Shown: one piece after another, positions 17,871 through 46,646 of the stretch | How the letters are laid out: every line of letters begins with the position of its first letter | Position numbering within the stretch: the first letter of the stretch is position 1 | Source of the DNA: Cutibacterium porci | GTDB taxonomy: Bacteria; Actinomycetota; Actinomycetes; Propionibacteriales; Propionibacteriaceae | DNA: 64,000 nt | Assembly: GCF_009696315.1 (NCBI RefSeq) | Contig: NZ_VUMG01000002.1 | Span: 62,001 to 126,000, forward strand | Direction: 5' to 3' | The notes under the pieces: generated by a model | The model's input: the letters and a program-made list of their open reading frames with translations, nothing else | Told to the model about the DNA's origin: nothing | Database searches by the model: none | Made by a program: the position numbers and the translations under genes

Positions 17871-17973
17871 TGTCGGGCTCCTTTCGCGTCCATCCGAGTT
17901 TGGCTGCCAGATCTGGGGGGCAGGTGACCTTCGTTCCGCCTGGCGTTACGAAGGTCACCTTTGCTTCACTCAT
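17815..17973 (-). CDS. Small capsid-associated protein
   Basis: 52 aa, ATG overlapping the major capsid stop. The start, MSEAKVTFVTPGGTKVTCP then LAAKLGWTRK, resembles short proteins encoded after the capsid gene in many actinophages (DUF7302-like). The C-terminal basic tail overlaps the connector gene by 56 bases, so the true end may be shorter than shown. Function unknown. Confidence 0.5.
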   Translation of the reverse strand: MSEAKVTFVTPGGTKVTCPPDLAAKLGWTRKEPDSGQKPRNTARDRAPRQRH

Positions 17974-18869
17974 GCGGCGTTGGTGAGCTTGACGAACTGC
18001 TCGGGGTCGGTGATGAGGCAGCCGTATTCGGCTTCGGCGAGGATGCCGACGAGGTTGTTTTGCCACAGGGGGATGATTTCCCCGTTGAGCTTGACGGTGG
18101 CCTCGGTTGATACCGAGTAGGTGATTCCGCCGACCTGGCCCCAGACAATCTTGGACCAGTCCCCGCCGTAGCCGACTACGCTCTTACGATCGGAGGTGGC
18201 GACACCATCGCCGACGAACGCTGGACGGCCCAGCAGGCGGGCGGAGGCGAGGGCGTTATCGCTGTAGACAGGCTCAGCGAGGAGCGGGCGTCCGGTGGTG
18301 TCGTAGGAACCGTTAAGCAGCGGTTCTGCAGTGGAGTCGAATGCCCAACCGGTGAGCTTCTTGCCCTCGGCGACCATGAGCTGAATGGCAGTATTTGCGT
18401 CACCGTAGATGCCACCGTGGGCGGCGTCGGCGGTGCCAAGCTCGACGGCCTTCTTGGTCTCGTCGAGGTTGTGGGCGAACGGCGAGCTGGTGCCGTGCAG
18501 GACGGCGGCATCGAAGGCTACAGCGAAAGCCTCGGCGATGTCAGTCTTAAACATGTTGACATAGTTGGCAGGGTTGGCGCGCACAACCTCAGCAGAGACG
18601 ACGGCGATAGCGGCAATCTTCTTGGGCTCCATCTTCAGCAGCCCGACCTCGCCCTTAGTGACGGGTTTCTCGCCCGCCTCGGCGACCCACCCGGCGGTGG
18701 GCTTGGAGGTGACAATCGGGACGGTCTCTCCGGAGATACCCAGCGGAACCTTACGGGCGAGCTGCTGGACAACGGAACGCTTGGCGGCCTCGTCGAAGAA
18801 CGCTTGGGCCATGTGCGGCTGGAGATAGCCGGAAAAATCGGTTGTTTTGGTGGGTGCGGTGACAGTCAC
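17970..18869 (-). CDS. Major capsid protein, HK97 fold
   Basis: 299 aa from GTG/ATG 18869. It has the capsid hallmarks: PLGISGETVPIVTSKPTAGWVAEAG (E-loop region, near 43-68), KKIAAIAVVSAEVVRANPAN, and DIAEAFAVAFDAAVLHG. The length is typical for a scaffold-assisted HK97-fold capsid without a delta domain. It follows a scaffold gene and precedes connector genes. Confidence 0.9.
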   Translation of the reverse strand: MTVTAPTKTTDFSGYLQPHMAQAFFDEAAKRSVVQQLARKVPLGISGETVPIVTSKPTAGWVAEAGEKPVTKGEVGLLKMEPKKIAAIAVVSAEVVRANPANYVNMFKTDIAEAFAVAFDAAVLHGTSSPFAHNLDETKKAVELGTADAAHGGIYGDANTAIQLMVAEGKKLTGWAFDSTAEPLLNGSYDTTGRPLLAEPVYSDNALASARLLGRPAFVGDGVATSDRKSVVGYGGDWSKIVWGQVGGITYSVSTEATVKLNGEIIPLWQNNLVGILAEAEYGCLITDPEQFVKLTNAA

Positions 18870-25242: not shown

Positions 25243-26193
25243 TTAGGCGCTCCTAGGCAGCATAGGGAGGCTCTGACGGGCATTGCTGCGGCTTGCGTCG
25301 TCTACTGATGCGGCATCCCGGGCGGCAGCGCGGCTGTAGGCGTCCTGCCATTCGTCGTCGGTGAGGCCGGTGGCAGGTCTCCCCTGAGGGCGCGATGGCG
25401 TCTCAGCGGAGCGCCGGAGCCAGTTACGCCAGGTGGCGTCCCAGTCGCGCTTGCGTCCGCGCTGACCAGCAACGCCAGCCCAGTAGTCGCGGAAGCGGTC
25501 GAGCTGGCCGGTCAGCCATTCGGGGGAGTGCCCGTCCTCGACGGCGAGGTTCGCCGGGGTGCGCGATGGGCCCCAGCCGTCGGGCAGCCGGGTGCCCTTG
25601 GCTGCGGTGTTCGCCGCGACCGTCTCGGGGGCGGTCGGCGCGTCAGCGACGACATCGGGCAGGTGGGGTTCGTCGGAGTCGTCACCCCCCTGTACCCCCG
25701 AACGTAGTGAGGGGGTTATATATAGGTCGGGACGGGACGGGGCTTCGTTTTGCTTCGACGTTTGCTTCGCGTTTGCTTGAAGCAAAATCGAAGCATTTGC
25801 TTCACCGTTTGCTTCGCGTTTGCTTCGTGCTTCGCTTGCCTTATTTCTCCTAGTCACACCGGATTTCATGCCACCTTTACGCCCCGCCTCGGACCGCTTG
25901 GCGCTCGTTTGCTTCCGCCTCTCACGGACTGCTGACGAGGAGGGTTGATACTCGTTCCAATCATGGAATTGGTACCCCCCTTCGACGCGTTCCCACAGAC
26001 CTGCTTGAAGCAAAATCGAAGCATTTGCTTCGTTGCTTCGCAGCATGGGGAGCACTGCCTTTGGAACGTATCCGTCGGTGAGCTGCTGGGCGCACCATGC
26101 GCCTGCCGTGACCCACAAGCCGAGCGCTTCGAGAGGGCAGGCCAGCACCTTCGGATTGAGCGGGAAAGTATCGTCAACTTTGAACCAGCTCAT
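25243..26193 (-). CDS. Phage replication initiation protein
   Basis: 316 aa, ATG overlapping the methylase stop (ATGA). The N-terminal 90 residues are a winged-helix domain (WFKVDDTFPLNPKVLACPLE, then FHDWNEYQPSSSAVRERRKQ), typical of lambda O / DnaD-like phage initiators. A low-complexity Lys/Ala/Ser middle contains two copies of ANASILLQA encoded by identical 30-bp DNA repeats. The C-terminus (RFRDYWAG, DWDATWRNWLRR) matches the end of many phage replication proteins. The initiator probably binds repeats inside its own gene. Confidence 0.75.
   Translation of the reverse strand: MSWFKVDDTFPLNPKVLACPLEALGLWVTAGAWCAQQLTDGYVPKAVLPMLRSNEANASILLQAGLWERVEGGYQFHDWNEYQPSSSAVRERRKQTSAKRSEAGRKGGMKSGVTRRNKASEARSKREANGEANASILLQANAKQTSKQNEAPSRPDLYITPSLRSGVQGGDDSDEPHLPDVVADAPTAPETVAANTAAKGTRLPDGWGPSRTPANLAVEDGHSPEWLTGQLDRFRDYWAGVAGQRGRKRDWDATWRNWLRRSAETPSRPQGRPATGLTDDEWQDAYSRAAARDAASVDDASRSNARQSLPMLPRSA
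25774..25803. repeat. Iteron-like repeat copy A inside the replication gene
   Basis: A 30-bp sequence beginning TGCTTGAAGCAAAATCGAAG is repeated exactly at 26002-26031. Around this copy (25741-25840) the unit TTTGCTTCG or TGCTTCG recurs many times in both orientations. The cluster is AT-richer than its surroundings. The arrangement recalls lambda ori, where iterons lie within the O gene. Confidence 0.65.
26002..26031. repeat. Iteron-like repeat copy B inside the replication gene
   Basis: Exact 30-bp copy of 25774-25803, 228 bp away, followed by two more TTGCTTCG units to 26040. Both copies encode the same peptide, ANASILLQA, in the initiator. Confidence 0.65.
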
Positions 26194-27140
26194 GCCGCCT
26201 CATCTCCGAACAATGAATCCTGGGTTGCTGGTTTGAGGCACGCCGGGGAAAACCAGATGCGCTCGCGGTCGCTCGCTCTGCCAGCCCCGTAGCCAGAACT
26301 GCCAGCCTTTCCGAAGACCTTCGTCCACCCGTGGGCAAGCAGCTCGTCGTGCTCGCTGTCATAGCCGCACAGGGCGATCCTCATGTCTGCTGGTGCTCGC
26401 AGACACCAGTCGCGGGCTGCCGCCGACAGGCCGACACCGTCGCTGCCGTAGATGTCGTAGCCGACCTCGTACGGTGGGTCCAGTAGGACGGCGATAGACC
26501 CGTCTCCGCCGTTTCTGGCGCACAGCGCGGCCGGTGTCACCACCATGTTCCAGCCGCCGCAGGTGATGCGAACGTGCGACAGCCTGTCGGCGAGGGCCGC
26601 CATGCCGGCGGCAACGTCGCGCCCGTTGGCGTACACGCCTCTATCGCTGCCGAGCGCTGGGAAACACCTTTTGACTCCGCTGCTGGCAGGGACTGACACC
26701 AATGATCCGCCGCGTGTGATCCACGGCCCCGGTTCGCTTGGGTGGCCGATCGACCCGGAGGCTACTGTCAGCCACCACGCGGCAGCCTTGGCGTCGTAGT
26801 GCTCCGGGTCGCCTTCCAGCCACGCAACGAACCCGTCGCGGCGCTCGTTCAGCCACGCCATGCGGGCGTGAATGTCCACCTCAGACAGTGGCCCGGCGCA
26901 CTCGGCGGCGACACCAGCAGGGTCAGCCTTGATGGCCCGCCACACATTCGCGACCCAGCCGTCGCGGTCGTTGATGGTCTCCACGCGCCTTCCCTTGAAG
27001 GCTGGGCGGTTTAGCAGGACCGCAGCCGACCCGCAGAAGGGCTCAACATAGCCGCCAGGATCGCCGAAGCGCTCCCAGATGATCTGGGCGGCGAGACGCT
27101 TGCCGCCGAAGTACGGGAACGGCGCTCTCAGCGCGCTCAT
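26190..27140 (-). CDS. D12-class adenine DNA methyltransferase
   Basis: 316 aa from ATG 27140, overlapping the CysH-like stop. Motif X/I is FPYFGGKR with EPFCGSAAVLL (residues 8-45), and motif IV is LLDPPYEVG near residue 215. This is the Dam/DpnM-type alpha class, which methylates adenine in a short site such as GATC. In a phage it would protect DNA from host restriction or regulate replication. No cognate endonuclease is adjacent. Confidence 0.85.
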   Translation of the reverse strand: MSALRAPFPYFGGKRLAAQIIWERFGDPGGYVEPFCGSAAVLLNRPAFKGRRVETINDRDGWVANVWRAIKADPAGVAAECAGPLSEVDIHARMAWLNERRDGFVAWLEGDPEHYDAKAAAWWLTVASGSIGHPSEPGPWITRGGSLVSVPASSGVKRCFPALGSDRGVYANGRDVAAGMAALADRLSHVRITCGGWNMVVTPAALCARNGGDGSIAVLLDPPYEVGYDIYGSDGVGLSAAARDWCLRAPADMRIALCGYDSEHDELLAHGWTKVFGKAGSSGYGAGRASDRERIWFSPACLKPATQDSLFGDEAA

Positions 27141-27871
27141 GGCTCCTCCACAATGTCGGGGTAGTAGGTGCGCTCCCAATCGGCGCGGCCTCGGTGGGCT
27201 TGGGTGATGCCACCGATAGGGGAGACGCGCAGCCAGCGGCGGTCGTAGTGGCCGCCGCAGCTCATGGCGTAGGCGGGATGCACTGGCAGATCATGGCGGC
27301 ACAGATACGCGAACACGTCGACCGCTGTCCATCGCCCGATGGGACGACAGGCACCCGGGCCAGCCTCACCCCACCTGGCTATCACCATGTCGCGCATACG
27401 TGATTCCTCAGCACGTACACCGGTGATATGTCGCGAGCCGAATTCTTTTTCCGGTCCTGTGAATTGCCCGCGAGTGTGCTGGCCTTTACGGTCGCTGAAT
27501 TCAATATTGTCCCACCAGCGGGGCCCGCCATCTACCCAGTATTCGTGGTAGTCGACGCGGTCGCCGTACTCGCCAAGAAAAGCGTCCCGCACGGTGAGGC
27601 AGTCGGGATTTTCCCACCGTCTCATACGCACATACACCAGGGGAAGCCTGACGCCGCTGGTGGCGACGAGATGGGCGACAACAGTGGAGTCTTTACCCCA
27701 TGACGTCGACGCGTAGCATTGCCCCGCCTCGGCGAATTCCCGGATGGTTTTGTGGGCACGGTCCTCACGGGACGTCCACCTGGGGTCGGCTGCCAGGGCG
27801 CGATCGTAGCGCTCCAGGCGGGTCCACGCCTTCCTGTCGGCGTCGGTTAGTCGCGGTGAGTCGATGAGCAT
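27137..27871 (-). CDS. CysH/PAPS reductase-like protein of the type IV-like Cas block
   Basis: 244 aa from ATG 27871; upstream frame is a shadow. The PP-loop ATP-pyrophosphatase motif is YASTSWGKDSTVVAHL (residues 51-66). Then come RPIGRWTAVDVFAYLCRHD and HPAYAMSCGG, typical of phosphoadenosine-phosphosulfate-reductase-family proteins. Phage versions are common (DndC/CysH-like) with unclear substrates. Here it ends a block of csf-like genes. A CysH-like gene beside csf1-cas11-csf2-csf3 is a documented hallmark of type IV-B CRISPR loci, where its role is not known. Overlaps both neighbours. Confidence 0.8.
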   Translation of the reverse strand: MLIDSPRLTDADRKAWTRLERYDRALAADPRWTSREDRAHKTIREFAEAGQCYASTSWGKDSTVVAHLVATSGVRLPLVYVRMRRWENPDCLTVRDAFLGEYGDRVDYHEYWVDGGPRWWDNIEFSDRKGQHTRGQFTGPEKEFGSRHITGVRAEESRMRDMVIARWGEAGPGACRPIGRWTAVDVFAYLCRHDLPVHPAYAMSCGGHYDRRWLRVSPIGGITQAHRGRADWERTYYPDIVEEP

Positions 27872-28077
27872 TCCGCATCTCCTATCGATTTGTAGGGTTG
27901 TCCGCGCCGGGAGTATGCGATGCGGCCTTGGCGTCTGAGAGTGGCGAGTGCTGCCGTCACCTGTGCGGGGGTGAGCCCCAGCTGCGCTGCCGCGATGGAG
28001 GGGGTGACGGTGCGCCGCCGGTCGGGGCGCGGCGGAAGCCACGCCCACACGGCATCAATAATCTGAGGGTCGATCAC
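27847..28077 (-). CDS. Small winged-helix protein
   Basis: 76 aa. GTG 28077 overlaps the csf3-like stop (GTGA); the longer frame is a shadow. Residues 20-60 (VTPSIAAAQLGLTPAQVTAA, LRRQGRIAYSRRGQPY) form a winged helix-turn-helix. It sits between the Cas5-like and CysH-like genes and could be a regulator of the block or a nucleic-acid-binding accessory. No family recognised. Confidence 0.55.
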   Translation of the reverse strand: MIDPQIIDAVWAWLPPRPDRRRTVTPSIAAAQLGLTPAQVTAALATLRRQGRIAYSRRGQPYKSIGDAECSSTHRD

Positions 28078-28658
28078 TGGAGACTCCGGCGCGAGGGGTG
28101 CCAGTAGGGTGCCCGGCAGGCCGCTTGGGGCGGCCACTCCCGGTCGGTCCAGTCGCCGTCGACGTCGTCTAGTGCCCAGTGGGTGACGTGGCCTGCCCCG
28201 GCGTTGTGGCGCGCCCCGAGGTGGGTGACGTGTCTCAGCAGGTCCGCCAGGTCGTCGACGTCGGTGGGCTCGACATCCCACCAGACGGTGGAGGTGACGA
28301 TGGCGGCCCGGATGACGTTGCGGGCCTTCGTCGGGCCGAGCCCGTTGTGATGCTTCGCGTCCGATGTCCACACAGACATGGGGCCAGTGGCGGGCTTGCG
28401 GCGTATCTCCATGGCGGTGTGCACCGGACCATCGATGTGGGCCCTCGAGGTGCGCCAGCCCCACCACCCCTCCCTCTGCCAGCGGGCGAGAGGGAGGGGG
28501 AAGTCCGCCGCCGGTGTTGACGGTGTTGGGGCGGGGGGAATTGTTTCTCCGCGTGCTCGGGCGCGCACCGCCCAGGCCCACGACAGGGGCCCATCGAGGG
28601 GTGTCTGCCATGTGTCGGCGCCGACAATCGGAGAGTCAAGGTGTGCTGTGACTCTCAC
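28074..28658 (-). CDS. csf3: Csf3/Cas5-like RAMP protein
   Basis: 194 aa, GTG start overlapping the Cas7-like stop (GTGA). The start MRVTAHLDSPIVGADTWQTP and the glycine-rich loop HVTHLGARHNAGAGHVTHW (about 143-161) are the RAMP-fold features of Cas5 proteins; type IV Csf3 has this pattern. In type IV complexes Cas5 caps the 5' handle of the crRNA and starts the Cas7 filament. A strongly basic or catalytic site is not obvious, as expected for a structural Cas5. Family call rests on motif and order; no search was run. Confidence 0.7.
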   Translation of the reverse strand: MRVTAHLDSPIVGADTWQTPLDGPLSWAWAVRARARGETIPPAPTPSTPAADFPLPLARWQREGWWGWRTSRAHIDGPVHTAMEIRRKPATGPMSVWTSDAKHHNGLGPTKARNVIRAAIVTSTVWWDVEPTDVDDLADLLRHVTHLGARHNAGAGHVTHWALDDVDGDWTDREWPPQAACRAPYWHPSRRSLQ

Positions 28659-29546
28659 TGTGTCACCTCAATGATGAGGTCGCGGATGGCTTCCGCATTG
28701 TGGCGCAGGCTGAAGTCGAGCCACGCGACGGACTCGTCGATGACAGACTGGGCGATGCTGTCGCGCCAGTCGAGGGTGGCGGCACCGTAGCCGGTGTTTG
28801 TCGAGGCACCCAGGTGGGCGACGCCTTCGGGGGCCCATAGCCCGATGCCCGCCTGTAGGGCCACCTGCTGCTCGTCGGTGGCGGCTGGGGTGAGCCCGAT
28901 GGTTCCCCACAGCTGGGATCCTGGCAGGAGCACTTGGGTGTCGAAGATCATTTGCGTCGACTCGGTCGTGCCGCCGTCGAGGGTGTCTGGGGGCGCGATC
29001 ATGCGGGACGCCTGGGTGGAGGCCGTGTCGTGGCGGGTGCCGAACTCTTCGCCCCGGTAGGCTCCTGCGCGGCGGGGGCGCTGCCCGGCTACCTGCTCGG
29101 GGAGGCGGAATGCGTTCTCGGCGCACACGAGGATGGCGTCGGAGACGCGCGCCGTCCCCTCGTAGATGTCGGAGTGGGCCGCGTAGCCGAGCACGGATAG
29201 GGCCGGGAGAAGGTCGCGGACGCGTCGCTGTAGGTCGAGGTCGACCTGTGCCCCGGTGGATGAGATGGCCCCTCCAGACCACAGCAGGTCGACCTGGGTT
29301 TTCGTCATAGTGCCCGGCTCGAAGCATGTTGACGCGATCCGCCACGCCAGGGCGGAGCGGATGCCGTGGCGGATGGATGCCCCGGACAGGAAGGGCACCT
29401 GCACGGTTGTGTCGCCGTCGGAGATGACCTCGTGGGTGCGCAGGAGGCGCGTGTTCCCCGGAGGATCCTGCGCCGTGGGCGAAGGGTGAGGTGAGAGTGG
29501 CGACGTACTGATATTGGGGGTGCATGGTGGCGATTGTGGTAGTCAT
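28655..29546 (-). pseudogene. csf2: Csf2/Cas7-like backbone protein, frameshifted
   Basis: The start MTTTIATMHPQYQYVATLTS then PFAHGAG (ATG 29546) is in one frame. From about residue 30 the frame needed is one base off and continues as NTRLLRTHEVISDGDTTVQV, PFLSGASIRHGIRSALAWRI to the stop at 28655. A C-run at 29456-29459 (GGGG in the mRNA sense) holds one base too many. The GASIRHGIR element is the Cas7 thumb/palm signature seen in type IV Csf2. If restored, the protein is about 296 aa. It may be a true mutation, an assembly error, or a slip site; both flanking genes are intact. Confidence 0.7.
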
Positions 29547-29938
29547 CAGAAGGGGATCTCCTCGGTCGTAGCAGTGGTTTTCTCAGTGCTTTTCTTTATG
29601 ATTTTGTGCTTGTCGCGCTCCGTCATGGCGAGGGCGACGATGTAGACGATGTGACGGCTCACGTGGGAGGCCCACGCCTGATAGTCGACGTCGATGGCTC
29701 GGCCGATGCGCTTAAGGCCGTCGGCACAATAAATTGACGGTGACTCGATTTGGAGCTTGCGGAATGCGGTCGTGATAGCCTGCCCGGCGTCCTCTGATCC
29801 TGCTGCGGCAGTGGTGATGGCCGTGGTGACACGGCCCGCCCAGAAGTCGAGCAGGCTCACGTCTGTGAGACTGGATCGCAGGGCGAAAATGAGATCGACG
29901 GTGACAGCGTCGAGCTCCTCGGGGGTTGGTGTGGTCAT
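29546..29938 (-). CDS. Small helical protein, Cas11 position
   Basis: 130 aa from ATG 29938, overlapping the csf1-like stop (ATGA), and sharing one base with the Cas7-like start. The upstream extension to 30259 is a shadow. The protein is almost entirely helical (LLDFWAGRVTTAITTAAAGS, AFRKLQIESPSIYCADGLKR) and ends in a charged Lys/Thr tail. In type IV-B loci a small helical Cas11 subunit lies exactly between csf1 and csf2. Sequence similarity among Cas11 proteins is very low, so this is a positional call. Confidence 0.5.
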   Translation of the reverse strand: MTTPTPEELDAVTVDLIFALRSSLTDVSLLDFWAGRVTTAITTAAAGSEDAGQAITTAFRKLQIESPSIYCADGLKRIGRAIDVDYQAWASHVSRHIVYIVALAMTERDKHKIIKKSTEKTTATTEEIPF

Positions 29939-30654
29939 TGCATGGTTCCTTTCGTGACGGTCCACAGGGCCAGGTCGAGTAGTGGTGAGCGGTGCCATCC
30001 GGACAGCTGCCGGTCGAGGCCGCGCCATGCGGCTAGCTGCTCGGATGTCTTGATGAATGCTGGCCTGCCCTCTCGCACAGCTTCGGCGGGCACCCCCATG
30101 CGGCGTAGCCCCATGGCCGCGTCGCGCACTGTCGCCCACTCGTCCGAGGTTGCGGAGACCTGGGTGTCTTCGACGCGCACCACCCATGTGCGCCCGTGGT
30201 TGACGCGGGCGTATGGCAGGACGTGTTTCTGGCCCGAGAGGGCCACCGATGCCACCCAAGGACCCTCAGGCGGGTCGGACAGAATGTCGACGAGGGGTTG
30301 AGGGTTGGCGCGGTTGATAAGCGACAGCCCGGGGGTGTCTTGGAGGAATGCTTTCTCGTGGGTTTGGCACGCCGTTCCCGGCGCGGCGACGATCGTCCAC
30401 ATGCGCAGTGTTGCCGGTGGTTTTCCGGAACAGCACCACAGGCATGCCGGGCATACCCTCGATGTGCCGCCTTCGAGCAGTGACCGGTCGGAGAAGTTCT
30501 TCCCCAAGGCCTTGTCGAAGTCTGCGGTAATGGGCTCATCGTGGCCGCAGATGGCGCACACTCCGGGGTGATCCTGCAGGTGCTTGGCTGTGGATGCGGC
30601 GGTGATGGGCGGGCATCCCGCTAGATCGTAGACGAGCCTAGTGGCCTCACTCAT
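29935..30654 (-). CDS. csf1: Csf1-like zinc-finger protein
   Basis: 239 aa, overlapping the Cas6-like gene by eight bases. The diagnostic feature is a four-cysteine zinc site: GVCAICGHDEP (Cys33, Cys36) and VCPACLWCC (Cys68, Cys71), separated by a loop with NFSDRSLLEGG. This spacing and setting match Csf1, the type IV large-subunit (Cas8-like) protein. The rest is mixed alpha/beta, with SVALSGQKHVLPYARVN-type strands. In type IV complexes it sits at the crRNA 5' end. Gene order with Cas11-, Cas7- and Cas5-like genes strengthens the call. Confidence 0.7.
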   Translation of the reverse strand: MSEATRLVYDLAGCPPITAASTAKHLQDHPGVCAICGHDEPITADFDKALGKNFSDRSLLEGGTSRVCPACLWCCSGKPPATLRMWTIVAAPGTACQTHEKAFLQDTPGLSLINRANPQPLVDILSDPPEGPWVASVALSGQKHVLPYARVNHGRTWVVRVEDTQVSATSDEWATVRDAAMGLRRMGVPAEAVREGRPAFIKTSEQLAAWRGLDRQLSGWHRSPLLDLALWTVTKGTMQ

Positions 30655-31210
30655 GGGTGACCATCACCATTCCGCAGCCGTAGGCTTTCCCTGGCCCGAC
30701 GCCGGAGGCGACCATGCGCTCCAGCGCTGCCGCGTCGATGACGCGCCCGGAGACGGTGTAGTCGACGCGCCTAATCGTGACAAGGCCGCTGGACTTGTGC
30801 CCGAACACGGGCCGCAGTGGTGTTGCGTCCACAGCGGCGCAGTCGATTATGTCGCGGAAGCGCTGACGCGCCCACGTGATCTGCCCGTCATGATCCGTGA
30901 TGGGTGTGCGCACTCCGCGAGACCGTCCGGGCGTGCGCACGCTCGCACATGGGCAGGCGACAAGATGTAGCTGAATCGTGTCGCCGTCACTGGGGTGCCC
31001 CTCTGCGATGACGCCAGCCGATGCGATCCATGACATGTCGGCGTTAGGGCGGTAGGCGTCGTGCCTGACCAGGATGTGCATTGGCGTGCGTTGAGCCCAC
31101 AGGATGCGTCCGCCTGAGAACGTGCCGTCGATGCGATGATGCAGCCAGCGCACATTCCTCAACGCCGCAGCGGCGGCGGGGCGAGTAAGGTCAATTGATG
31201 TGAGCATCAC
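30647..31210 (-). CDS. Cas6e-like crRNA-processing protein
   Basis: 187-188 aa; GTG 31210 or ATG 31207 both overlap the RusA-like stop. Near the N-terminus WLHHRIDGTF carries a histidine at the place of the catalytic His of Cas6e. RILWAQRTPMHILVRHDAYR then matches the first RAMP strands. The C-terminal GVGPGKAYGCGMVMV (about 169-183) is the glycine-rich loop that defines Cas6e (Cse3/CasE). Cas6e cuts type I-E repeats to make crRNA. It starts the csf-like block. Cas6 is usually absent from type IV-B, so its presence here is unusual. Confidence 0.7.
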   Translation of the reverse strand: MMLTSIDLTRPAAAAALRNVRWLHHRIDGTFSGGRILWAQRTPMHILVRHDAYRPNADMSWIASAGVIAEGHPSDGDTIQLHLVACPCASVRTPGRSRGVRTPITDHDGQITWARQRFRDIIDCAAVDATPLRPVFGHKSSGLVTIRRVDYTVSGRVIDAAALERMVASGVGPGKAYGCGMVMVTHE

Positions 31211-31572
31211 TGCCCCTCTACTCTGATAGTGACGGTGTGGAAGCCCTTCGGGGAGGGATCGGTAGCCCGGCGCATGTCTGGGCCGATGACATGCTGTGAG
31301 TCGTCATCGGGCCACACTCCGGCGTCGGTCATGCCATCGATTAGGGCCTTGACGGTCGGATAAGCATTGGCGGGGTCGGCCCTCCCAGAGCGGTAGGAAA
31401 TCTCTGCGACAACGCGAACTGGCCCGTCGGCGTGAATGTGGTGGCGGCGACACTGCGCGGCCGCCATGGCCCGCAAGACTCGCGTCCTGCGGGCACGGTC
31501 AGCCCAGTGATAGCGCCCGTTGGCGCTCATCCACACGGCAGCGGGCACCAGCACAGTGAACTGCTGGCTCAT
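31207..31572 (-). CDS. rusA: RusA-family Holliday junction resolvase
   Basis: 121 aa from ATG 31572. The motif GRADPANAYPTVKALIDGMT followed by DAGVWPDDDSQHV carries the conserved Asp residues of RusA dimers. It resolves branched DNA during phage replication and recombination, working with the YqaJ-RecT pair encoded upstream. Overlaps both neighbours by four bases. Confidence 0.85.
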   Translation of the reverse strand: MSQQFTVLVPAAVWMSANGRYHWADRARRTRVLRAMAAAQCRRHHIHADGPVRVVAEISYRSGRADPANAYPTVKALIDGMTDAGVWPDDDSQHVIGPDMRRATDPSPKGFHTVTIRVEGQ

Positions 31573-34865: not shown

Positions 34866-35053
34866 GATCTGCCCCCGTGGGGGTCCGTGCCGTCCCCGCC
34901 GCAGGTGTGGCACCAGCCGCCCCATTTGCCCTCGCCAGAGCCGTTACACTCAGGGCAAGGCTCATCCGAGCCGCCTGGTCGCCTATTCCATTCGTGCCGG
35001 GCGAGCCATTCACGCTCGGCACGGGCCACACTCCACCGGTCGACGGTGCTCAT
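34862..35053 (-). CDS. Small DnaJ-type zinc-finger protein
   Basis: 63 aa, ATG 35053 overlapping the pentapeptide-repeat stop. It holds CPECNGSGEG and CHTCGGDGTD, a two-half CxxCxGxG zinc finger like the DnaJ Cys-rich domain. Such mini-proteins are common in phage early regions, with unknown roles. Confidence 0.65.
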   Translation of the reverse strand: MSTVDRWSVARAEREWLARHEWNRRPGGSDEPCPECNGSGEGKWGGWCHTCGGDGTDPHGGRS

Positions 35054-35664
35054 GACGCCCACCTGTCGGATAGCGCGTCGATCACGCCCGGATGTGCGGC
35101 GATATGGGCGTCACACATGTCACAGAATGAGGACAGTAGCGGGCGGAGGCGGGTGATCTCGTCGCCGGTAGATTCGGGCCAATCATCGCCAGCGATCAGC
35201 TCGCGCAGATCCCCGACAGTCCCCGACCAGCATCCGATAGTGATGAGCCACCATTCCGGTGTCGGGACGAGGAGGCATCGGTAGCGGTGTAGCCCGTCGA
35301 TGGCTAGGCCACACCAGCTGGCCCAGTACAGGTCAGCATCGCGCAGGTTGGCCCCGTATAGGTCAGCCCCGCGCAGGTTGGCATCGCGCAGGTTGGCACT
35401 GCGCAGGTTGGCGCTGTACAGGTCAGCCCCGTACAGGTCAGCCCCGTACAGGTTGGCCCCGTACAGGTCAGCATCGCGCAGGTTGGCCCCGTATAGGTCA
35501 GCCCCGCGCAGGTTGGCATCGCGCAGGTTGGCGCTGCGCAGGTCAGCCCCGCGCAGGTCAGCCCCGTACAGGTTGGCCCCGTACAGGTCAGCATCGCGAA
35601 GGTCGACTAGGGCATAATCCTTACGCGCCCTGGCAATAACGTCCAATACTTCTTCGCGGTTCAT
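35050..35664 (-). CDS. Pentapeptide-repeat protein
   Basis: 204 aa from ATG 35664. Residues 20-120 contain about 20 consecutive A(D/N)LxG-type pentapeptides (ADLYGANLYGADLRGADLR and variants), which should fold as a right-handed quadrilateral beta-helix. The C-terminal 80 residues are a separate Trp/Cys-rich domain. The DNA is itself a run of near-identical 15-bp units, so copy number may change by recombination. Known pentapeptide proteins mimic DNA (Qnr, MfpA), but most are of unknown role. It lies just after the lysogeny switch. Confidence 0.85.
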   Translation of the reverse strand: MNREEVLDVIARARKDYALVDLRDADLYGANLYGADLRGADLRSANLRDANLRGADLYGANLRDADLYGANLYGADLYGADLYSANLRSANLRDANLRGADLYGANLRDADLYWASWCGLAIDGLHRYRCLLVPTPEWWLITIGCWSGTVGDLRELIAGDDWPESTGDEITRLRPLLSSFCDMCDAHIAAHPGVIDALSDRWAS

Positions 35665-38766: not shown

Positions 38767-40173
38767 TCAGGTCGGCGTGGAGTCGTTGGCGGCGAGCTTG
38801 TCCGCGGTGATCGTCCCGGCAGTGATCCGTGCAGCCGACAGGTAGTCGGTGGTGATCTTGCCCGCATCCAAGGCAGTGATCTTGGCGTTGGTGATGGCGG
38901 CGTCGGTGGTCACTGCGGTGGAGATGTAGCCGTTGGCGATGGTCAGCTTTCGGAGGTGATCGACCCAGCCATGATGTTGACCGCGGTGATCGTGTTGGCT
39001 ACCAGCCTATCGCCGGTCAGTGACCCGGTCTTGATTTGGGCGGCGGTCAGTGTGCCTGCAGCGATCTGCAGGGCCGTGATGGTGCCGGTTTTGATCCTGA
39101 TCGCATCGACTGCTTCGGCAGTGAGTTTCGCGGTGGTGATGGCCCCGGCGATGATCTTGGTGGTCTTGATAGTGCCGTCGATGATCAACCAATCCCCGGC
39201 AGCCTCCACGACTGTGGGCTCACACAGATCAATGTCTACGCCGGTGGGAACCGTGACGCCGGTGATCGTCAACCATGTCAAACCTTGCTGGGGCTGGGTG
39301 TCGCATGTGGTGGACACGGCCTCCCACAGCGTCCACGTGTTGGCAGGAATCTGCGCGGAGGCGGCTGGGCTGTCGCCGAACATTGACATGGTCAACGCCC
39401 CAGCGGGCAAAGGTTGTGCGCAACGGATCCGCACCGAGAGCCTGTAGCTGCGGCCGCTGGCGGTGGAGATCACCTTTGACGGGTCATTGTCACCGTTGGT
39501 GATGGTGTCGCGACCGGTGCCGGTGATCGTGGCCCACCGGTAGGTGATGTAGGCGTCGCGGTATCCGCCACTGGTGTGGACGGTGCGCGTGCCCTCTGAT
39601 GGGGTACCCCACCCGTCGGCGTTGTGGGCGAAGCGGAGATTCCACACGAGGTTTCCGGGCTCGAGCATCCCCGCACGCAGCGCGGCCGCGACGGCAGCGG
39701 ACTTGGCGTCAGCAGCGGTGCGGGTTGCCGAATCAAGAATGGTGCGGGTCTGGTCGAGCTCGGTGTCTAGCGCTGTCAGGTCGGTACGCAGCCCGGTGAT
39801 GGCGGTGGTGGCGGCCGCGACCTGGTTGGCGGTGCGGGTGAGTTCAGTGTGGGCCTCGGTGAGGGCGGCGGCTGCCTGGTCGGCTGCGGCCTGACCCAGC
39901 TTCAGACTGATGTAGGAGCCGGTGAGCGGGTCGAAGGTGTAACCCATCACCCGGGCGGTGACAGCGGTGGTGTGGTGGCGCACGATGACGGTGTCACCCG
40001 AGGTGACGGTTTCCAACCAGGCAAGGTCGGCGTATTCGCGATTGGAGGATAGGTCGACCATGTTGATCCGGTAGGTGGCTGTGGGCCGGGTCGGTGATGG
40101 CCGGGTCGAGGACCGCCAGCCCGCTGGTGGTGAAGTCAGTGGTGGTGCGGTCGTGAACGCTCAACATGGCGGG
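38767..40173 (-). pseudogene. Phage tail-tip protein remnant
   Basis: The start is MLSVHDRTTTDFTTSGLAVL (ATG near 40166). After about 28 codons the frame changes, and the sequence resumes at TATYRINMVDLSSNREYADL. This implies loss of the long middle of a Tal-type hub. The large surviving piece (372 aa, 38943-40061) ends in AIT/TAxxIKT beta-repeats, then shifts frame again near 38950 and continues as LTIANGYISTAVTTDAAITN. At least two frame breaks and one large deletion are visible. Confidence 0.7.
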
Positions 40174-40195
40174 GTGTCCTTGCGGGTTGAGGCGG

Positions 40196-40928
40196 TTAGG
40201 GATTGCGCCAGCCGGGCGTGATGACCAGTTGGCCTATCCCGGAGCCGGGGATGATCCGGTTCGCTCTGGGCACCAGGGTCGGGAAGTCGCTGATCAGTGC
40301 GCCGGTTTGGGCTTTGCCTGCGACGTGGCACAGCATGCGGGCCGCGTCGACGGTGAGGGTTCCGGCGGGGGAGTTCACCGTGAATGGGACAATGCCGACG
40401 GGCCCGGTGCCGCCCTCGGTGACGTCGGCCTTCCACGGGTGCTTGCCTGCCGTGTCGGTCTTGTTGCGGCGCAAGATCGTGCCCTCGATCTCAGGAGTGG
40501 CGAACTTGATCCTGTCGGCCTTGGTTGACAGAGACGTCTTGGGGACAGCGACCTTGACCCGATACAGCCAGAAGTACTGGTACTTCCCGCTCGAGCGGGC
40601 GGCACGGAACCCGATCGCGACCGGGGCACCGCCATCCGCAGAGGCGGACACCAGCACCCCGTTGCTGTCGACCCGGGCACCGACCAGTGCTGCAGCAGCC
40701 GTCGGCCCCAGATCATCGATTCCCAGGGTGAGGGTGCCGGAGGCAAACTCCTTGACCACCTCCGATGCGCCGTCATCGGCATACAAGGTGGCTTCGGCAA
40801 CCTCTACCTCGAGCTCGGCAGAGATCGCCTTGGCCCAGCTGCACCGGCTTGCCGTAGGTTTCGGCCCCAGTGGCGGGGTCCTCAGTGACCGTGGCGTAGT
40901 AGAGCTTGTCCAAACCAATCGTGGCCAT
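40196..40928 (-). pseudogene. Tail-tube gene fused to distal-tail gene, frameshifted
   Basis: From ATG 40928 the frame gives MATIGLDKLYYATVTEDPAT to GKPVQL. One extra base in the C-run at 40834-40836 then shifts it; the correct continuation is AKAISAELEVEVAEATLYAD in the frame that runs to 40196. That body is a major tail (tube) protein up to GGTGPVGIVPFTVN. The last 60 residues (SPAGTLTVDAARMLCHVAGK, then PGSGIGQLVITPGWRN) look like the C-terminus of a Dit protein. The genes normally between them, including the tape measure, are missing, so a deletion of several kilobases joined the two in frame. Confidence 0.7.
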
Positions 40929-41046
40929 AGGTGGTGTCCTTTCAGGGCACGAGGGATAGCGGGTGCGGCCCCACCACGGGGGATGGGACGCGACAAGGGG
41001 GAGAGGTGTTCGACGGGTTGGCAGCGAGTGTCACCGCGAGGCATAC

Positions 41047-41066
41047 TGGTACAAGATTCGGTACCA
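41047..41066. promoter_or_regulatory. Inverted repeat upstream of the YefM-YoeB module
   Basis: TGGTAC (41047-41052) and GTACCA (41061-41066) are inverted copies eight bases apart, 18 bases before the antitoxin ATG and next to its GAGGAGG ribosome site. YefM-type antitoxins repress their operons by binding TGTACA-like palindromes, so this is the likely operator. Confidence 0.6.
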
Positions 41067-41083
41067 TATGGAGGAGGTTGGTC

Positions 41084-41329
41084 ATGGCTGTCACTGCCAC
41101 GGAGGCACGAAAGAACCTGTTCCCGTTGATTCAGCAGGTCAACGAGGATCGCGCGCCAGTCGAGATCACCTCGCGCAATGGTGACGCGGTGCTGCTTTCC
41201 CGGGCGGACTATGACGCGCTGGCTGAGACGGCGCATCTGCTGCGGGTTCCAGCCAATGCTAAGCATCTGCTGGAGAGCTTGGAGCAGGCCCGTGCGGGCA
41301 AGCGCGATGAGCACGATCTAGTGCGATGA
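41084..41329 (+). CDS. yefM: YefM/Phd-family antitoxin
   Basis: 81 aa from ATG 41084, behind GGAGGAGG. The N-terminal fold is MAVTATEARKNLFPLIQQVN, then ITSRNGDAVLLSRADYDALA, the canonical YefM DNA-binding dimer. The C-terminal LESLEQARAGKRDEHDLV is the toxin-wrapping tail. The stop overlaps the YoeB start (ATGA). Confidence 0.9.
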   Translation: MAVTATEARKNLFPLIQQVNEDRAPVEITSRNGDAVLLSRADYDALAETAHLLRVPANAKHLLESLEQARAGKRDEHDLVR

Positions 41330-41583
41330 GACTGGTTTTTACGCCTAACGGCTGGCGCGACTACACCTACTGGCTTGGCGCTGACCGGCAGACCCTCAAG
41401 CGCATCAACCGGTTGATCGACGACGCCCTGCGTGATCCAACCGCAGGCATCGGCAAGCCCGAACCCTTGCGACACATGCTGTCGGGGACATGGTCGCGTC
41501 GCATCAGCGAGGAACACCGGTTGGTGTACCTCGTCGATGGTGACGACCTTGTGGTCTTGCAAGCTCGTTTCCACTACGAGTAG
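41326..41583 (+). CDS. yoeB: YoeB-family toxin, mRNA interferase
   Basis: 85 aa. The sequence RLVFTPNGWRDYTYWLGADR, then GIGKPEPLRHMLSGTWSRRI and a final ARFHYE keep the YoeB active residues (Glu of KPEPL, Arg of SRR, His-Tyr at the C-terminus). YoeB cuts mRNA at the ribosomal A site. The module lies opposite to, and between, the tail-completion and tail-tube remnants, so it was inserted into the phage structural operon. It appears intact. Confidence 0.9.
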   Translation: MRLVFTPNGWRDYTYWLGADRQTLKRINRLIDDALRDPTAGIGKPEPLRHMLSGTWSRRISEEHRLVYLVDGDDLVVLQARFHYE

Positions 41584-41610
41584 GCAACGGCAGACCCCGG
41601 ATAAGCCCGG

Positions 41611-41979
41611 TCAGCGTGCAGGCCACGGCGACACCGAACTGGGCTGAGCTGCCCGTCCGGCGACATCGATGGCGTAGTGGTGGAATCTGGTGTCGGCCTC
41701 GTAGCCGACGTACTGTCGGCCGGTGATAGTCAGCCCGGCCTTTAGCAGGGCGGTGGTGATCCGGTCGCGTAGGGGTAGGTAGTTGCCGCGGGTGAATAGG
41801 GGGATGCGGGCTTGTTCGGTCTGCACGCCGGGGGTGTTGTCTGCGAAGACCTCGAGTGTGTCGACCAGTGGTGTGATCACCAGGTAGGTGTCTGGGGCTG
41901 GTGTCTTTGTGTACAGGGCGACGGCCGAGGGTAGCCCAAGTTGTTGGGTGAGCTGGTTGAGGGTTTCGAGCACGATCAT
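41611..41979 (-). CDS. Tail terminator-like protein of the remnant
   Basis: 122 aa from ATG 41979, overlapping the gp10-like stop. LPSAVALYTKTPAPDTYLVI, then GNYLPLRDRITTALLKAGLT and ADTRFHHYAIDVAGR fit the DUF3168/tail completion plan. The final residues (AAQPSSVSPWPAR) may be altered by the neighbouring insertion. Confidence 0.6.
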   Translation of the reverse strand: MIVLETLNQLTQQLGLPSAVALYTKTPAPDTYLVITPLVDTLEVFADNTPGVQTEQARIPLFTRGNYLPLRDRITTALLKAGLTITGRQYVGYEADTRFHHYAIDVAGRAAQPSSVSPWPAR

Positions 41980-42395
41980 GGCTGTACTTGACTGATTCGC
42001 GCGGCGAGTGCTTGCTTCGTGGCGGGGGCTCGGGTCTGGGATCGGGTGGGTGCCAGGAAGGGGTGGGCTGGCTGATTGGAGCGGCCGTGTTCGAGGACGT
42101 TGGCGATGTGCGCGTTGCTGCGTCCGTCGGTGCGGTTTTCGGCGAACCCGACCTTGATGTTGTGGTCTCCGCCGGAGTTGACCTTGACCGACGTGATGCC
42201 GAGCGTGGACAGCAGTTGTCCGGTGGGTCGCGACGGGTGCTGTCCTTGTCCGATGGCCTGTTGGAGGTTGGAGCGCATCCGGGCTTCGACGATCCTGGCC
42301 CCGGCGTGCAAGACCTCGTCTGCGCACGCCTCAATCGCAGTGCTGACGGTCTGGAGGCTGTCGAGGAACCGGTTGATCTGCATGCGTGCCATCAC
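41976..42395 (-). CDS. HK97 gp10-like protein of the remnant
   Basis: 139 aa from GTG 42395 (ATG 42392 also possible). It is helical, then has NSGGDHNIKVGFAENRTDGR, HIANVLEHGRSNQPAHPFLA, the pattern of gp10-type head-tail joining proteins where the Pro-His-Pro-Phe near the end is typical. It appears intact. Confidence 0.65.
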   Translation of the reverse strand: MMARMQINRFLDSLQTVSTAIEACADEVLHAGARIVEARMRSNLQQAIGQGQHPSRPTGQLLSTLGITSVKVNSGGDHNIKVGFAENRTDGRSNAHIANVLEHGRSNQPAHPFLAPTRSQTRAPATKQALAARISQVQP

Positions 42396-42724
42396 GTGGT
42401 TCCTTCCGGCTCGGTGTGGTGGGCGAGGATCTCTATGTAGCGTCCGCCGATGTTCTCGACGGTGTCGATGATGAAGCGGCCGCGGTCGCAGGAAAGTTCC
42501 ATGGAGGCGTCGACGATAAGTCCGGGGATTGCTCGGATACGGAAGCTGTCGGTGGCTTGGGTGTAGGCGGCCCGGTTGACCCAGACGGCGGTGGCGTGGC
42601 GGGTTTCGATGTCGGCACGGCAGGTGGCGATGATCTCGTCACGGGTGGCTTCGAATCCGGCCGCATCGGTGGTGGTGATGGGTGCGATAAGGCCGACGAG
42701 GGTACGCATTTGGCCTAGTATCAT
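42392..42724 (-). CDS. Head closure-like protein of the remnant
   Basis: 110 aa from ATG 42724. It is beta-rich with VWVNRAAYTQATDSFRIRAI, LIVDASMELSCDRGRFIIDT, which fits gp16-type stoppers. Order relative to gp10-like and tail terminator genes agrees. Confidence 0.6.
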   Translation of the reverse strand: MILGQMRTLVGLIAPITTTDAAGFEATRDEIIATCRADIETRHATAVWVNRAAYTQATDSFRIRAIPGLIVDASMELSCDRGRFIIDTVENIGGRYIEILAHHTEPEGTT

Positions 42725-42738
42725 GGGCGGGTGTCTGT

Positions 42739-43866
42739 CTAGATCTTCCAGTCGCGGTCGAACCGCAGCAGGGTGTTGACAGCGTTCCAGACGGCGTCTG
42801 TGGTGCCGGATTTGTCGACCCAGTATCCGGCGGTGGCGCCGTCGCGGGATTCGTAGAAGTGGGTGGCGAGCATGATGACGGCTTGCTTGGTGGTGGCGAA
42901 CAGCTCGTTGAGGCGCTTAAACGAACGCCCCTGCCGGTCAGTGATCCAGTAGTAGCCCAGGTCGCCGAAGGCGACGCTGCGGGCTCCGGCCTTGACTTCG
43001 GGCACGAACGCCGACGAATGCACCGGCTTACCGAAGATCAGGTCTGGGGATCCGGCGGTGATGTCGGTGGCCTTGGCGGCGGTGACGCCGTCCTGGGCTC
43101 CGGCGGTGGCGTCGAAGATGCCGGTGGGCTTGCCCTTGCCGTCTTCGGCGATGAAGGCTTCCTCTTCGGCGGTGCCGATGCGGCGGGCGAATTCGGCGGT
43201 CAGGTAGGCCTCGATGTCGAAGGCGGCATCGTTGAGAAGTTTCTCGCTGATCTTGAGGAAGGTGCCGAGTTTGTGGGCCGACAGGGACAGCTGGGTGAAC
43301 TTTTCGTCGGACTCGGTGTAGGCGCTGCCTTCGTCGAGCCAGCTCGCGGTGCCGGGGGTGGCGACGACGGGGATCTTGCGGTCCCCGGAGGTGGTCTGGA
43401 TGACCCGTGCCAGTGGGCGGACGATGTTCTGGTCGGCCAGGGACTGCACGAGGGTGTGTTCGAACTCGTCCGGCACGAGGTACCCGCCTTCCGTGTCGAC
43501 GCCCTCGGACAGGGCGTTGCGGACCTCGAGCGGGGAGGCGTTGAGGCGCACCGCGTTCCAGAACGCCTGCTTGTAAGTGTTGGTGGCGCGACGGCTCGAC
43601 GGTGCAGTCTCGGGATCGATGTTAGATCCTTCGGGCATGGACACGAGTGGGGCGGCGGTGGCGCGGGCCATGTCGGCGTCGCGGCGCTGGGCTCGCTCGG
43701 AGTGGGGGATCTCGTTGGCGAGGGCGTCGATGTCGGCTTCCATGTGGGCGTAGGTGGCGTCGTCTTCGGCCGACAAGATGCCGTCGGTGTTGCGGTGGTC
43801 GTCGAGGAAGGCCTTGGCCTTCTCCCAGGTCTCAGCGCGCTTGGTGCGCAGGTCAGAAATCGTCAT
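42739..43866 (-). pseudogene. HK97-type major capsid protein with internal loss
   Basis: The start MTISDLRTKRAETWEKAKAF (ATG 43866; a TTG at 43893 is an alternative) and the long N-terminal delta domain are standard. EGVDTEGGYLVPDEFEHTLV and RKIPVVATPGTASWLDEGSA are canonical. After AAKATDIT the sequence jumps directly to AGSPDLIFGKPVHSSAFVPE. In the family about 50 residues of the core domain (with the helix that follows TFDEL) normally separate these. The C-terminus after LNELFATTK is also unlike the usual GQVGFxAxQRVDGKL end. The frame stays open, so the gene has been internally deleted. Confidence 0.7.
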
Positions 43867-43914
43867 CGTGGACGTGAAAATGCCCTCCCTCAAAGGGTTA
43901 GTAGGCTTGATTGG

Positions 43915-44196
43915 TCAGGGCGGCATACAGGTCAACGACCCACCGACCCATAGGAGCAGTCGCGGTTTGCCGTCGCGCTGCTTAGCAGGCAGATAGTCAT
44001 CTGGCTCTGGCATCGGCTCACCGGGCAGCACCGCGCCATCACCGAAATCGGTGCCATCCAACTCAAACACATCAAACTCGTGCGGGGTGGTGAGTCGGGT
44101 TGCGGGGCGGCCGGTGGCGAATTTCTCATTCAGCGGGTCGAATTTCGCACCTGCACGGACGCGCCGTCCGCCCCGGTTCGTGCCATCTTTTGTCAT
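43915..44196 (-). pseudogene. Terminase small subunit, N-terminal piece
   Basis: From ATG 44196: MTKDGTNRGGRRVRAGAKFD, then PDDYLPAKQRDGKP, the N-terminus of phage small terminases of this class. After residue 80 the sequence becomes LLLWVGGSLTCMPP and stops. The DNA-binding remainder, plus the large terminase, portal and protease genes expected before the capsid, are all missing. Confidence 0.65.
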
Positions 44197-44213
44197 GAAA
44201 TCTCGCCTCTGCA

Positions 44214-44734
44214 TCAGCCACAGTGGTGACCTCGTGCCGGTTCGGGTAGTGGGCGTTGTTCTGCTGGCCTGTGACGGTGGCGGTACGCATGGTCATCGGT
44301 GCCATAGGCCTCCTCAAAACCGGCAGTGAAATAGCGGATAGGTAGCTCGAGGTGGTGTACCCATTCGATCTCGGCGCGCATCCCTGCCGAGACGCGACCG
44401 GTGTAGACCCAGATCGCCTCGCACTTGGAGAGCAGGACGCGGTTGAAAGCATCGCCAACTCTCACGGTTCGGGATCCTGGTCGTTCATGAATTGGGGGTA
44501 GTACACGTGCGGAGCCAACGGAATCTTCTGCCGCTGCACGGCGTGGGCGCAGAACGCACTCGCCACCTCCACATCGCCGGAATACGGTGAGCAGATGTAG
44601 GCCAAGGGCCGGTAGCCGTACTCGGCCCGCTGCACGAGCTTGAGCGCTTTGAATGCTGTGGGGTCTGGGTAGCCCTCGATGTTGTGGGGCGAAAACCCCA
44701 CGTCCAGGCTTGTCAGAATCGCAGTGATGGTCAT
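44214..44734 (-). pseudogene. DUF4406/deoxyribosyltransferase-like protein, frameshifted
   Basis: From ATG 44734: ITAILTSLDVGFSPHNIEGY, then PLAYICSPYSGDVEVASAFC and APHVYYPQFMNDQDPE. The frame stops at 44462, but the family continuation is in another frame: AFNRVLLSKCEAIWVYTGRV, then SAGMRAEIEWVHHLELPIRY to 44214. The fold is that of small phage nucleotide-binding proteins (DUF4406/DUF7768). One frameshift near 44465 disables it. Confidence 0.7.
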
Positions 44735-45485: not shown

Positions 45486-45739
45486 GACCGGCTCCTTTTC
45501 CGGGAGCCGGGGTAGACAATCGCGGGCGTGGGATGCGCCAGGCTCTCACCTGTCAGGCATGGCAGGCGCCGAAACCGGACACGGCGTGAGGAAGGCTCTC
45601 ACCCATACGCCCCCGAGCACCGACAAATCCGGACGGGTCACTAGGAGAATCGCCGCAGCGGCCCCGACACAATCCGTGCCACTGGAGTCGAGGACGGTGA
45701 AGGCGGTTTGTGGGGCACCCGCATGATAGCATTCATGAC

Positions 45740-46637: not shown

Positions 46638-46646
46638 CCCACCCGG

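Follow-up and report, generated by a model that had tools for sequence, protein, structure and literature searches.

A prophage-borne, type IV-B-related CRISPR-Cas module of actinobacterial phages with a conserved Cas6e-type gene and a possible role in the capture of host type I-E guides

Background

Among the clustered regularly interspaced short palindromic repeats (CRISPR)-Cas systems, those of type IV-B are described as having neither a Cas6 nor an array (PMC8175902, PMC7937560; papers identified by such numbers are cited throughout from portions of their text). That they normally lack Cas6 had also been stated in an earlier interpretation of the DNA considered here, made from its letters alone (the sequence-only reading). 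Our subject is a block of seven genes at positions 27137..31210 of a 64,000-nucleotide stretch of Cutibacterium porci DNA (RefSeq GCF_009696315.1), the whole of which we call the window and which corresponds to positions 62001-126000 of contig C12 in a genome of 2.6 Mb and 19 contigs (G000). The block had been read as a IV-B-like set that carries a CysH-like gene together with a Cas6e-like gene, and profile searches bear this out. What that reading missed is the conservation of the Cas6e gene across a clade of such modules. From sequence comparisons, we judge it an evenly balanced proposition that the module is a virus-borne IV-B variant whose Cas6e captures the guides of host type I-E systems, most likely as counter-defence.

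The described systems closest to the module differ from it in several ways. The IV-B operon of Mycobacterium sp. JS623 (PDB 7jhy) likewise consists of csf1, cas11, csf2 and csf3 with no array, but it lacks Cas6 and resides on a megaplasmid (PMC7937560), whereas the module has a conserved Cas6e and, where its carriers could be judged, lies in phages or prophages. Virus-borne and prophage-borne IV-B sets are themselves already known (PMC10848311, PMC11656645); those of the archaeal Fuxiviridae share with the module a viral carrier and a CysH (PMC10848311) but have a mini-array, and the word cas6 is absent from the main text of that paper. Skermania phage SPI1 (KR011061, orf40-44; L008 4714-8347) encodes relatives of csf1, csf2, csf3 and cysH that are more distant in sequence, and no Cas6 match was found in this set or in the likewise distant sets of a Gordonia plasmid and an Actinarchaeum plasmid. 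The SPI1 set, which offers a comparison with the form that bears Cas6, is unannotated, orf40-44 all being listed as "hypothetical", and in the Actinarchaeum plasmid (L010) two genes annotated as belonging to the phosphoadenosine phosphosulfate reductase family lie near the set, at 7503-8318 and 10552-11643. Other mobile elements are known to interfere with or to borrow host guides, namely the Racr RNA anti-CRISPRs, phage dead Cas9 and the CRISPR-associated transposons (CASTs; PMC11656645), from which the module differs in that it is a multi-subunit Class 1 effector in full, accompanied by its own Cas6. A literature search of partial coverage returned no description of a Cas6-bearing IV-B branch, although one may exist elsewhere, and none is given in the portions covered of PMC8175902, PMC7937560, PMC10848311, PMC11656645, PMC12669027, PMC9071438 and PMC10333696. 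Some related gene must already have been catalogued, since the PADLOC type IV Cas6 model matches the Cas6 of the block (3e-7).

Genes of the module

The seven genes lie head-to-tail on the minus strand from 31210 to 27137, in the place where the sequence-only reading had put them, and each has profile support, which is weak for the winged-helix gene.

30647..31210, minus strand: cas6e-like gene, 187 amino acids, with His24 at the catalytic position and the glycine-rich loop GVGPGKAYGCG
29935..30654, minus strand: csf1 (type IV Cas8-like large subunit), 239 amino acids, with CxxC...CxxC; PADLOC typeIV_Cas8 1.8e-33
29546..29938, minus strand: cas11 (small subunit), 130 amino acids; PADLOC typeIV_Cas11 1.9e-43, scanned as 29546-29950
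28655..29546, minus strand: csf2 (Cas7-like), frameshifted; 28655-29404 matched by PADLOC, 7.4e-68
28074..28658, minus strand: csf3 (Cas5-like), 194 amino acids; PADLOC typeIV_Cas5 1.2e-23
27847..28077, minus strand: small protein, probably winged helix-turn-helix; Pfam matches weak, best 0.0017, below cut-off
27137..27871, minus strand: CysH-like PP-loop protein with SxSWGKDS and no conserved C-terminal Cys; PF01507 6.9e-10, phrog_2302 6e-26

The four motifs that had been picked out by eye are all present, and the four cysteines of Csf1 are invariant in an alignment of four rows (the window and three relatives). The Cas6e-like protein matches the PADLOC Cas6/Cas6e model at 6.4e-18 and Pfam PF08798 at 8.3e-14, above the cut-off, while its match to TIGR01907 falls below that model's cut-off; neither it nor Cas11 has a match in PHROG. 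A four-row profile of Csf2 matches the Csf2 of 7jhy at 4.3e-16, and an alignment of five distant Csf2 rows yielded no pattern. The small winged-helix protein is 41% and 44% identical to the product of the same-position gene in two module copies of another genome (G051, below). These E-values, together with the same gene order in 15 complete relatives, exclude a chance assembly, and the PADLOC matches to the csf genes rule out a phage CysH that happens to have unrelated neighbours. The interior of csf3 contains an inverted repeat (28469-28500) which, by eye, resembles an inserted palindrome.

In terms of the recognized subtypes, the locus has the csf1, cas11, csf2 (frameshifted here) and csf3 genes and the CysH-like protein of IV-B, with no array found in it. 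Type IV-B is described as lacking a crRNA (CRISPR RNA)-processing enzyme (PMC8175902, PMC7937560), and because a Cas6e-like gene is found in 18 of 19 loci we class the module as a IV-B-related variant rather than as plain IV-B. It is not IV-A, as neither an array nor a match to DinG or any other helicase was found, the latter among the nine proteins encoded by the seven genes and their two neighbours; nor is it IV-C, as the large subunit matches Csf1 models and not the Cas10-like type with an HD domain. With type I-E it shares a predicted Cas6e-type enzyme, similar in fold, His position and glycine-rich loop to CasE/Cse3, but profile scans of the same nine proteins found no Cse1, Cse2 or Cas3, for which the host has a separate operon, and the Cas6 falls outside a clade formed by nine host Cas6e proteins.

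The Cas6e-type protein

Several lines of comparison indicate that the Cas6 of the block is of the type I-E Cas6e kind and is a predicted endoribonuclease. A profile built from 15 phage and three host Cas6 sequences finds eight PDB sequences at E<=0.01 (best 4.5e-23), and those with a specific name are I-E Cse3/CasE. The AlphaFold2 model of the window protein has a mean predicted local distance difference test score (pLDDT) of 93, and its best Foldseek matches are the Cas6e proteins of E. coli and T. thermophilus (6.1e-12, template modelling (TM) score 0.78). Profile searches had been proposed as the means by which these genes might turn out to belong to unrelated phage families; for Cas6e they led to I-E Cas6e. 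Among the 15 phage copies with a full N-terminus (a count from which the G371 copy is absent), a His aligned with the YEMHRTL stretch of T. thermophilus Cse3, whose His we take to be the catalytic His26, is kept in 14, with Arg in its place in L071; in one alignment the G051 pair is out of register by a few columns, and in another it is aligned.

Conservation among relatives

Relatives were sought on viral contigs with csf1 and csf2 alignments, on genome contigs, in genomes of the family with the Cas11 model and in genomes of the class with the csf1 alignment. An initial csf1 scan of genome contigs gave nothing, and a Cas11 search of the phage collection found no match; the Cas6 query against that collection returned two records from Salmonella, of which one is annotated as Cse3 and the other is unannotated. 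The Cas11 model matched 2 of 198 family genomes, the window's own included, and the csf1 alignment matched 4 of 394 class genomes (the window's own, G198 for a second time, G371 and G309). G309 has a csf1 fragment with a stop and, although its I-E Cas6e scores above cut-off, is left out of the module and host counts. With this fragment and same-contig repeats removed, the total is 19 distinct loci.

In 18 of these, the first gene upstream of csf1 to have a profile match is cas6, which is intact in 16. The distance between the two genes is at most about 35 bases in 16 loci and about 0.5 kb in L069 and L126. The 18 loci with cas6 comprise the window, two sites in G051, one each in Phytoactinopolyspora limicola (G198), Pseudonocardia thermophila (G199) and G371, and twelve other viral contigs; L072 is the locus without cas6. 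Apart from the window, 15 of the other 17 have cas6, csf1, cas11, csf2, csf3 and cysH each in one open frame, the exceptions being the degraded modules L055 and L066, in the latter of which cas6 is in pieces. The G199 module is truncated to 49 positions of cas6, csf1 and part of cas11, with no match to csf2, csf3 or cysH on its contig. The pair of blocks in G051 share about 90% identity across 4.6 kb and have flanks that mostly differ, and prophage signs there consist of a RusA gene near one copy and the look of the neighbours; the G198 copy sits on an IMG/VR contig.

Distances between the Cas6 proteins follow those of the effector genes closely. Across 15 loci with a full set of the six genes (not among them L047, a near-duplicate, L066, which is broken, and L055, which is truncated), Mantel correlations of Cas6 with csf1, cas11, csf2 and csf3 are r 0.80, 0.65, 0.73 and 0.78, each with p 0.001, as opposed to r 0.12 (p 0.15) with cysH. 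It thus appears from these sequence distances that Cas6 belongs to the effector and is its tight evolutionary partner, and that CysH is the loosest one, an exchangeable part. Conservation in 18 of 19 loci, this co-inheritance and the fold together rule out that the Cas6 is a chance neighbour or was mis-called. In a tree, nine host I-E Cas6e proteins form a firm clade (support 100/99) with the phage Cas6 proteins outside it, which disfavours a recent capture from a host I-E operon, although the phage-host split itself is weak (74/66): of 200 bootstrap trees, 72% recover a single origin, and midpoint rooting groups three of the phage rows, including that of the window, with the hosts. Two further genomes, G005 (L097) and G011 (L098), contain Cas6e-like genes that score below the model cut-off and occupy a branch of their own; the 19 kb fetched around them gave no match to csf1, csf2, csf3, cas11 or cysH.

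Arrays and host type I-E systems

A source of guides within the module is not apparent. Ungapped matching with a simple filter found no I-E-like repeat, and no array-like pair with one, in 23 module stretches, where the sequences nearest to five I-E repeats differ from them at 6 to 12 positions; a mini-array or a lone I-E repeat next to a module was thereby rejected, and, in keeping with the sequence-only reading, no array was found in cis in the window. Spaced repeat pairs of other sequence are present in L046, L062, L070, L071 and L090.

The sequence-only reading had suggested that the complex might use crRNAs from host arrays and that the host genome be searched for arrays of I-E type. One was found in G000, broken between contigs C13 and C1 as judged from shared spacers, beside a complete I-E operon. 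The eight genes of the I-E operons of G000, G051 and G198 are open and matched above cut-off, where Cas3 was scored by helicase and HD domain models, its full-length model falling below cut-off. A chromosomal I-E Cas6e scores above cut-off in all five module hosts examined (G000, G051, G198, G199 and G371), against a background of 40 of 198 family genomes and 64 of 394 class genomes. The three module hosts in the class sample (G000, G371 and G382, which is the same as G198) are all among the 64, for which the probability by chance, calculated by hand, is about 0.004, or about 0.025 without the window's own genome. This pattern runs counter to PMC7937560, where IV-B is cited as co-occurring negatively with other CRISPR systems. 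The suggestion of host arrays as a guide source is strengthened to this extent.

Host spacers that match the module-bearing elements

We compared the first 33 bases of each distinct spacer exhaustively with the regions around the modules. Two of the 28 distinct spacers in G000 match the module region perfectly:

30136..30168, minus strand: protospacer in csf1, matched by a spacer of the host I-E array in 33/33 of its first bases (38/41 over the 41-nucleotide spacer), with GAA upstream and first base G
18317..18349, plus strand: protospacer in the major head protein gene, matched 33/33 by a spacer that stands third, counted from the cas side, in the host I-E array, with TAA upstream and first base G

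In G051 (166 spacers), the C1 region has 12 perfect matches and four with one or two mismatches and the C3 region one perfect and seven near matches, for a total of 13 perfect spacers; in G198, 12 of 150 spacers match perfectly and four nearly so. A control with reversed spacers gave 0 matches in every genome. Upstream of 37 of the 42 matches with at most two mismatches is AA (G000 2/2, G051 C1 15/16 and C3 6/8, G198 14/16), in agreement with the type I-E upstream rule, AAG. The perfect C1-region matches of G051 come from the cas-side spacers of its array, which are taken to be the newest, and the spacers may have been acquired before or after lysogeny. When about 41 spacers of G051 were compared with the whole genome, all 21 matches listed outside the array, with 40 of 119 candidates scored, were at the modules, in C1:2082305-2129736 (16) and C3:189972-224331 (5); with 43 spacers of G198, all five matches listed outside the arrays, with 40 of 75 candidates scored, were in C1:63410-84558, beside the module.

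The prophage setting

The block had been placed in an early phage operon, between RusA and Dam genes, and the profiles of its neighbours support this position.

31207..31572, minus strand: RusA-like resolvase, upstream of cas6; phrog_34 3.8e-18
26190..27179, minus strand: Dam-type DNA adenine methyltransferase, adjoining cysH; PF02086 3.3e-5, phrog_56 3.3e-22
17970-18869: major head gene of the main prophage

Farther upstream of RusA lie genes for a single-stranded DNA-binding protein (SSB, by eye), RecT and a RecE-like protein, and downstream of the block the methyltransferase is accompanied by a replication initiator and followed by terminase, portal, head and tail genes, from which we conclude that the block belongs to a prophage's early genes. 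An IMG/VR viral contig of 62,941 bases is identical across the block. The methyltransferase is a recurrent neighbour: of 17 cas6 loci scanned, 10 have one of Dam or N4 type next to cysH (L052, L054, L057, L062, L063, L064, L065, L068, L070 and the window), and cysH and the methyltransferase may form a unit of their own.

A second set of phage genes, perhaps a prophage remnant, lies beside the main prophage genes at 38943-47663:

40196-41314: major tail protein
42739-43893: major head protein
44787-45485: anti-repressor
46881-47663: DNA polymerase piece

Tandem repeats of 15 and 45 bases occur at 35329-35604 inside the gene at 35050-35664, of the phrog_7713 family, and a G051 gene (L046 6366-7385) contains short repeats that look similar by eye.

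What the module may do

The resident elements carry perfect, AA-flanked targets of host systems whose I-E genes are complete, which implies that interference is blocked or that the system is silent. Capture of guides is the explanation that we prefer, because the targeted regions of G051 and G198 have in common a module with a Cas6 of the I-E kind and no repeat found beside it. By this mechanism, the phage Cas6e would bind and cut the hairpin repeats of host I-E transcripts, and a complex of Csf1, Cas11, Csf2 and Csf3 would assemble on the resulting guides; these would thereby be drawn away from the host Cascade, or their targets would be occupied with no recruitment of Cas3. The expected outcome is a resident prophage that survives though the host I-E array aims at it. 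Precedents for guide capture exist in the CASTs, which take host crRNAs via Cas6, and in a phage dead Cas9 that is thought to sequester crRNA (PMC11656645). More broadly, we propose tentatively, and with rather less than even confidence, that a family of temperate phages of actinobacteria deploys a full Class 1 effector set as an anti-CRISPR of several subunits, in which its own Cas6e would take I-E pre-crRNA, load the Csf proteins and drain guides or cover protospacers with no Cas3, such that adaptation would continue while interference fell silent. The tolerated self-targeting suggests this anti-CRISPR role indirectly, and it points to a prophage shielded against the I-E system of its own host rather than to the help against rivals that the sequence-only reading had envisaged.

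A number of observations weigh against guide capture. The csf2 gene, intact in relatives, is frameshifted in the window near 29,46x: the reading frame of its first ~30 codons (29546 to about 29462) differs from that of the remainder (about 29470 to 28655), which had been overlooked when the gene was identified, correctly, as Cas7-like. No support for a programmed frameshift was seen; the frame that is left behind continues over a long distance before it closes. In the window strain the Csf complex may therefore not form, and tolerance there may be due to Cas6e alone, to some other anti-CRISPR or to a silent I-E system; in general, an unlinked anti-CRISPR or a silent I-E system could underlie tolerance. 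Two of the module hosts have no self-targets: 0 of 61 spacers on the module contig of G199, where the module is truncated, and 0 of 8 in G371, whose array is cut by a contig end. Moreover, a region of the C. porci genome other than the module prophage is targeted more heavily. With 21 G000 spacers compared with the whole genome, one match is in the window, nine are in C13:9783-21683 (L102, L103) and two weak ones are elsewhere, and in this C13 region 10 I-E spacers match perfectly, nine of them with AA upstream, versus two for the module prophage. By eye the region reads as phage head genes, and no profile match to module genes was found there in the first 40 kb of C13. As controls we took eight family genomes that have I-E but no Cas11 match, with the eight cas-nearest spacers of each; seven have no self-target, but G054 self-targets with 8/8 spacers. 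Its targets are scattered over C1 between 453 kb and 1.37 Mb, and they too are tolerated. The difference in self-targeting between three of five module hosts and one of eight controls falls short of significance (one-sided probability about 0.12, calculated by hand), and since fewer spacers were examined in the controls as well, this contrast alone is not proof. Finally, when a Mycobacterium IV-B complex without a Cas6 of its own was co-expressed with a I-E Cas6 and array, crRNAs were not enriched (PMC7937560).

The first of the alternatives would have the hijacked I-E crRNAs serve attack or control, silencing other phages, plasmids or the prophage's own genes in the manner of IV-A. The Cas6e, the failure to find an array and the I-E hosts fit this equally well, host spacers do match prophages, and IV-A represses transcription of its targets without cutting and can use host I-E adaptation (PMC11656645); we regard it as unlikely all the same, because no helicase match was found among the nine proteins scanned and because on its own it leaves the tolerance of perfect self-targets unexplained. 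Improbable to a like degree is a role in the modification of RNA or other nucleic acids outside CRISPR, in which Cas6e would process some other hairpin RNA, the complex would bind mixed RNAs as that of JS623 did (PMC7937560), and CysH and the methyltransferase would be the modifying enzymes, tolerance being due to an unrelated anti-CRISPR or a silent I-E system. That cysH is matched in all 15 complete relatives and so often adjoins a methyltransferase speaks for this role, as does the frequency of self-targeting in about 20% of CRISPR-bearing bacteria (PMC10810201) and in one of our eight controls, but cysH is the loosely inherited gene and Cas6 the tightly inherited one, and that Cas6 is of the I-E kind in hosts that, five out of five, have I-E Cas6e. 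That the csf2-broken block is a decaying passenger, non-functional here and uninformative about the host's tolerance, is very unlikely: the frameshift, the equally tolerated second prophage-like region of G000 and the degraded modules L055 and L066 would fit, but the other six window genes are open, as are all six genes in 15 of the other 17 cas6 loci.

Significance

The function of IV-B systems is unknown, and a Cas6e-bearing branch that occurs in I-E hosts, with no I-E-like repeat found next to it, and that in three of five of them is under perfect yet tolerated self-targeting names both a guide source and a role that can be tested. The module bears on what has been called an enigma, namely why viruses have taken up segments of CRISPR RNA to inhibit CRISPR while apparently leaving Cas proteins aside (PMC11656645). 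If true, its reading as a multi-subunit anti-CRISPR would give a function to one branch of IV-B.

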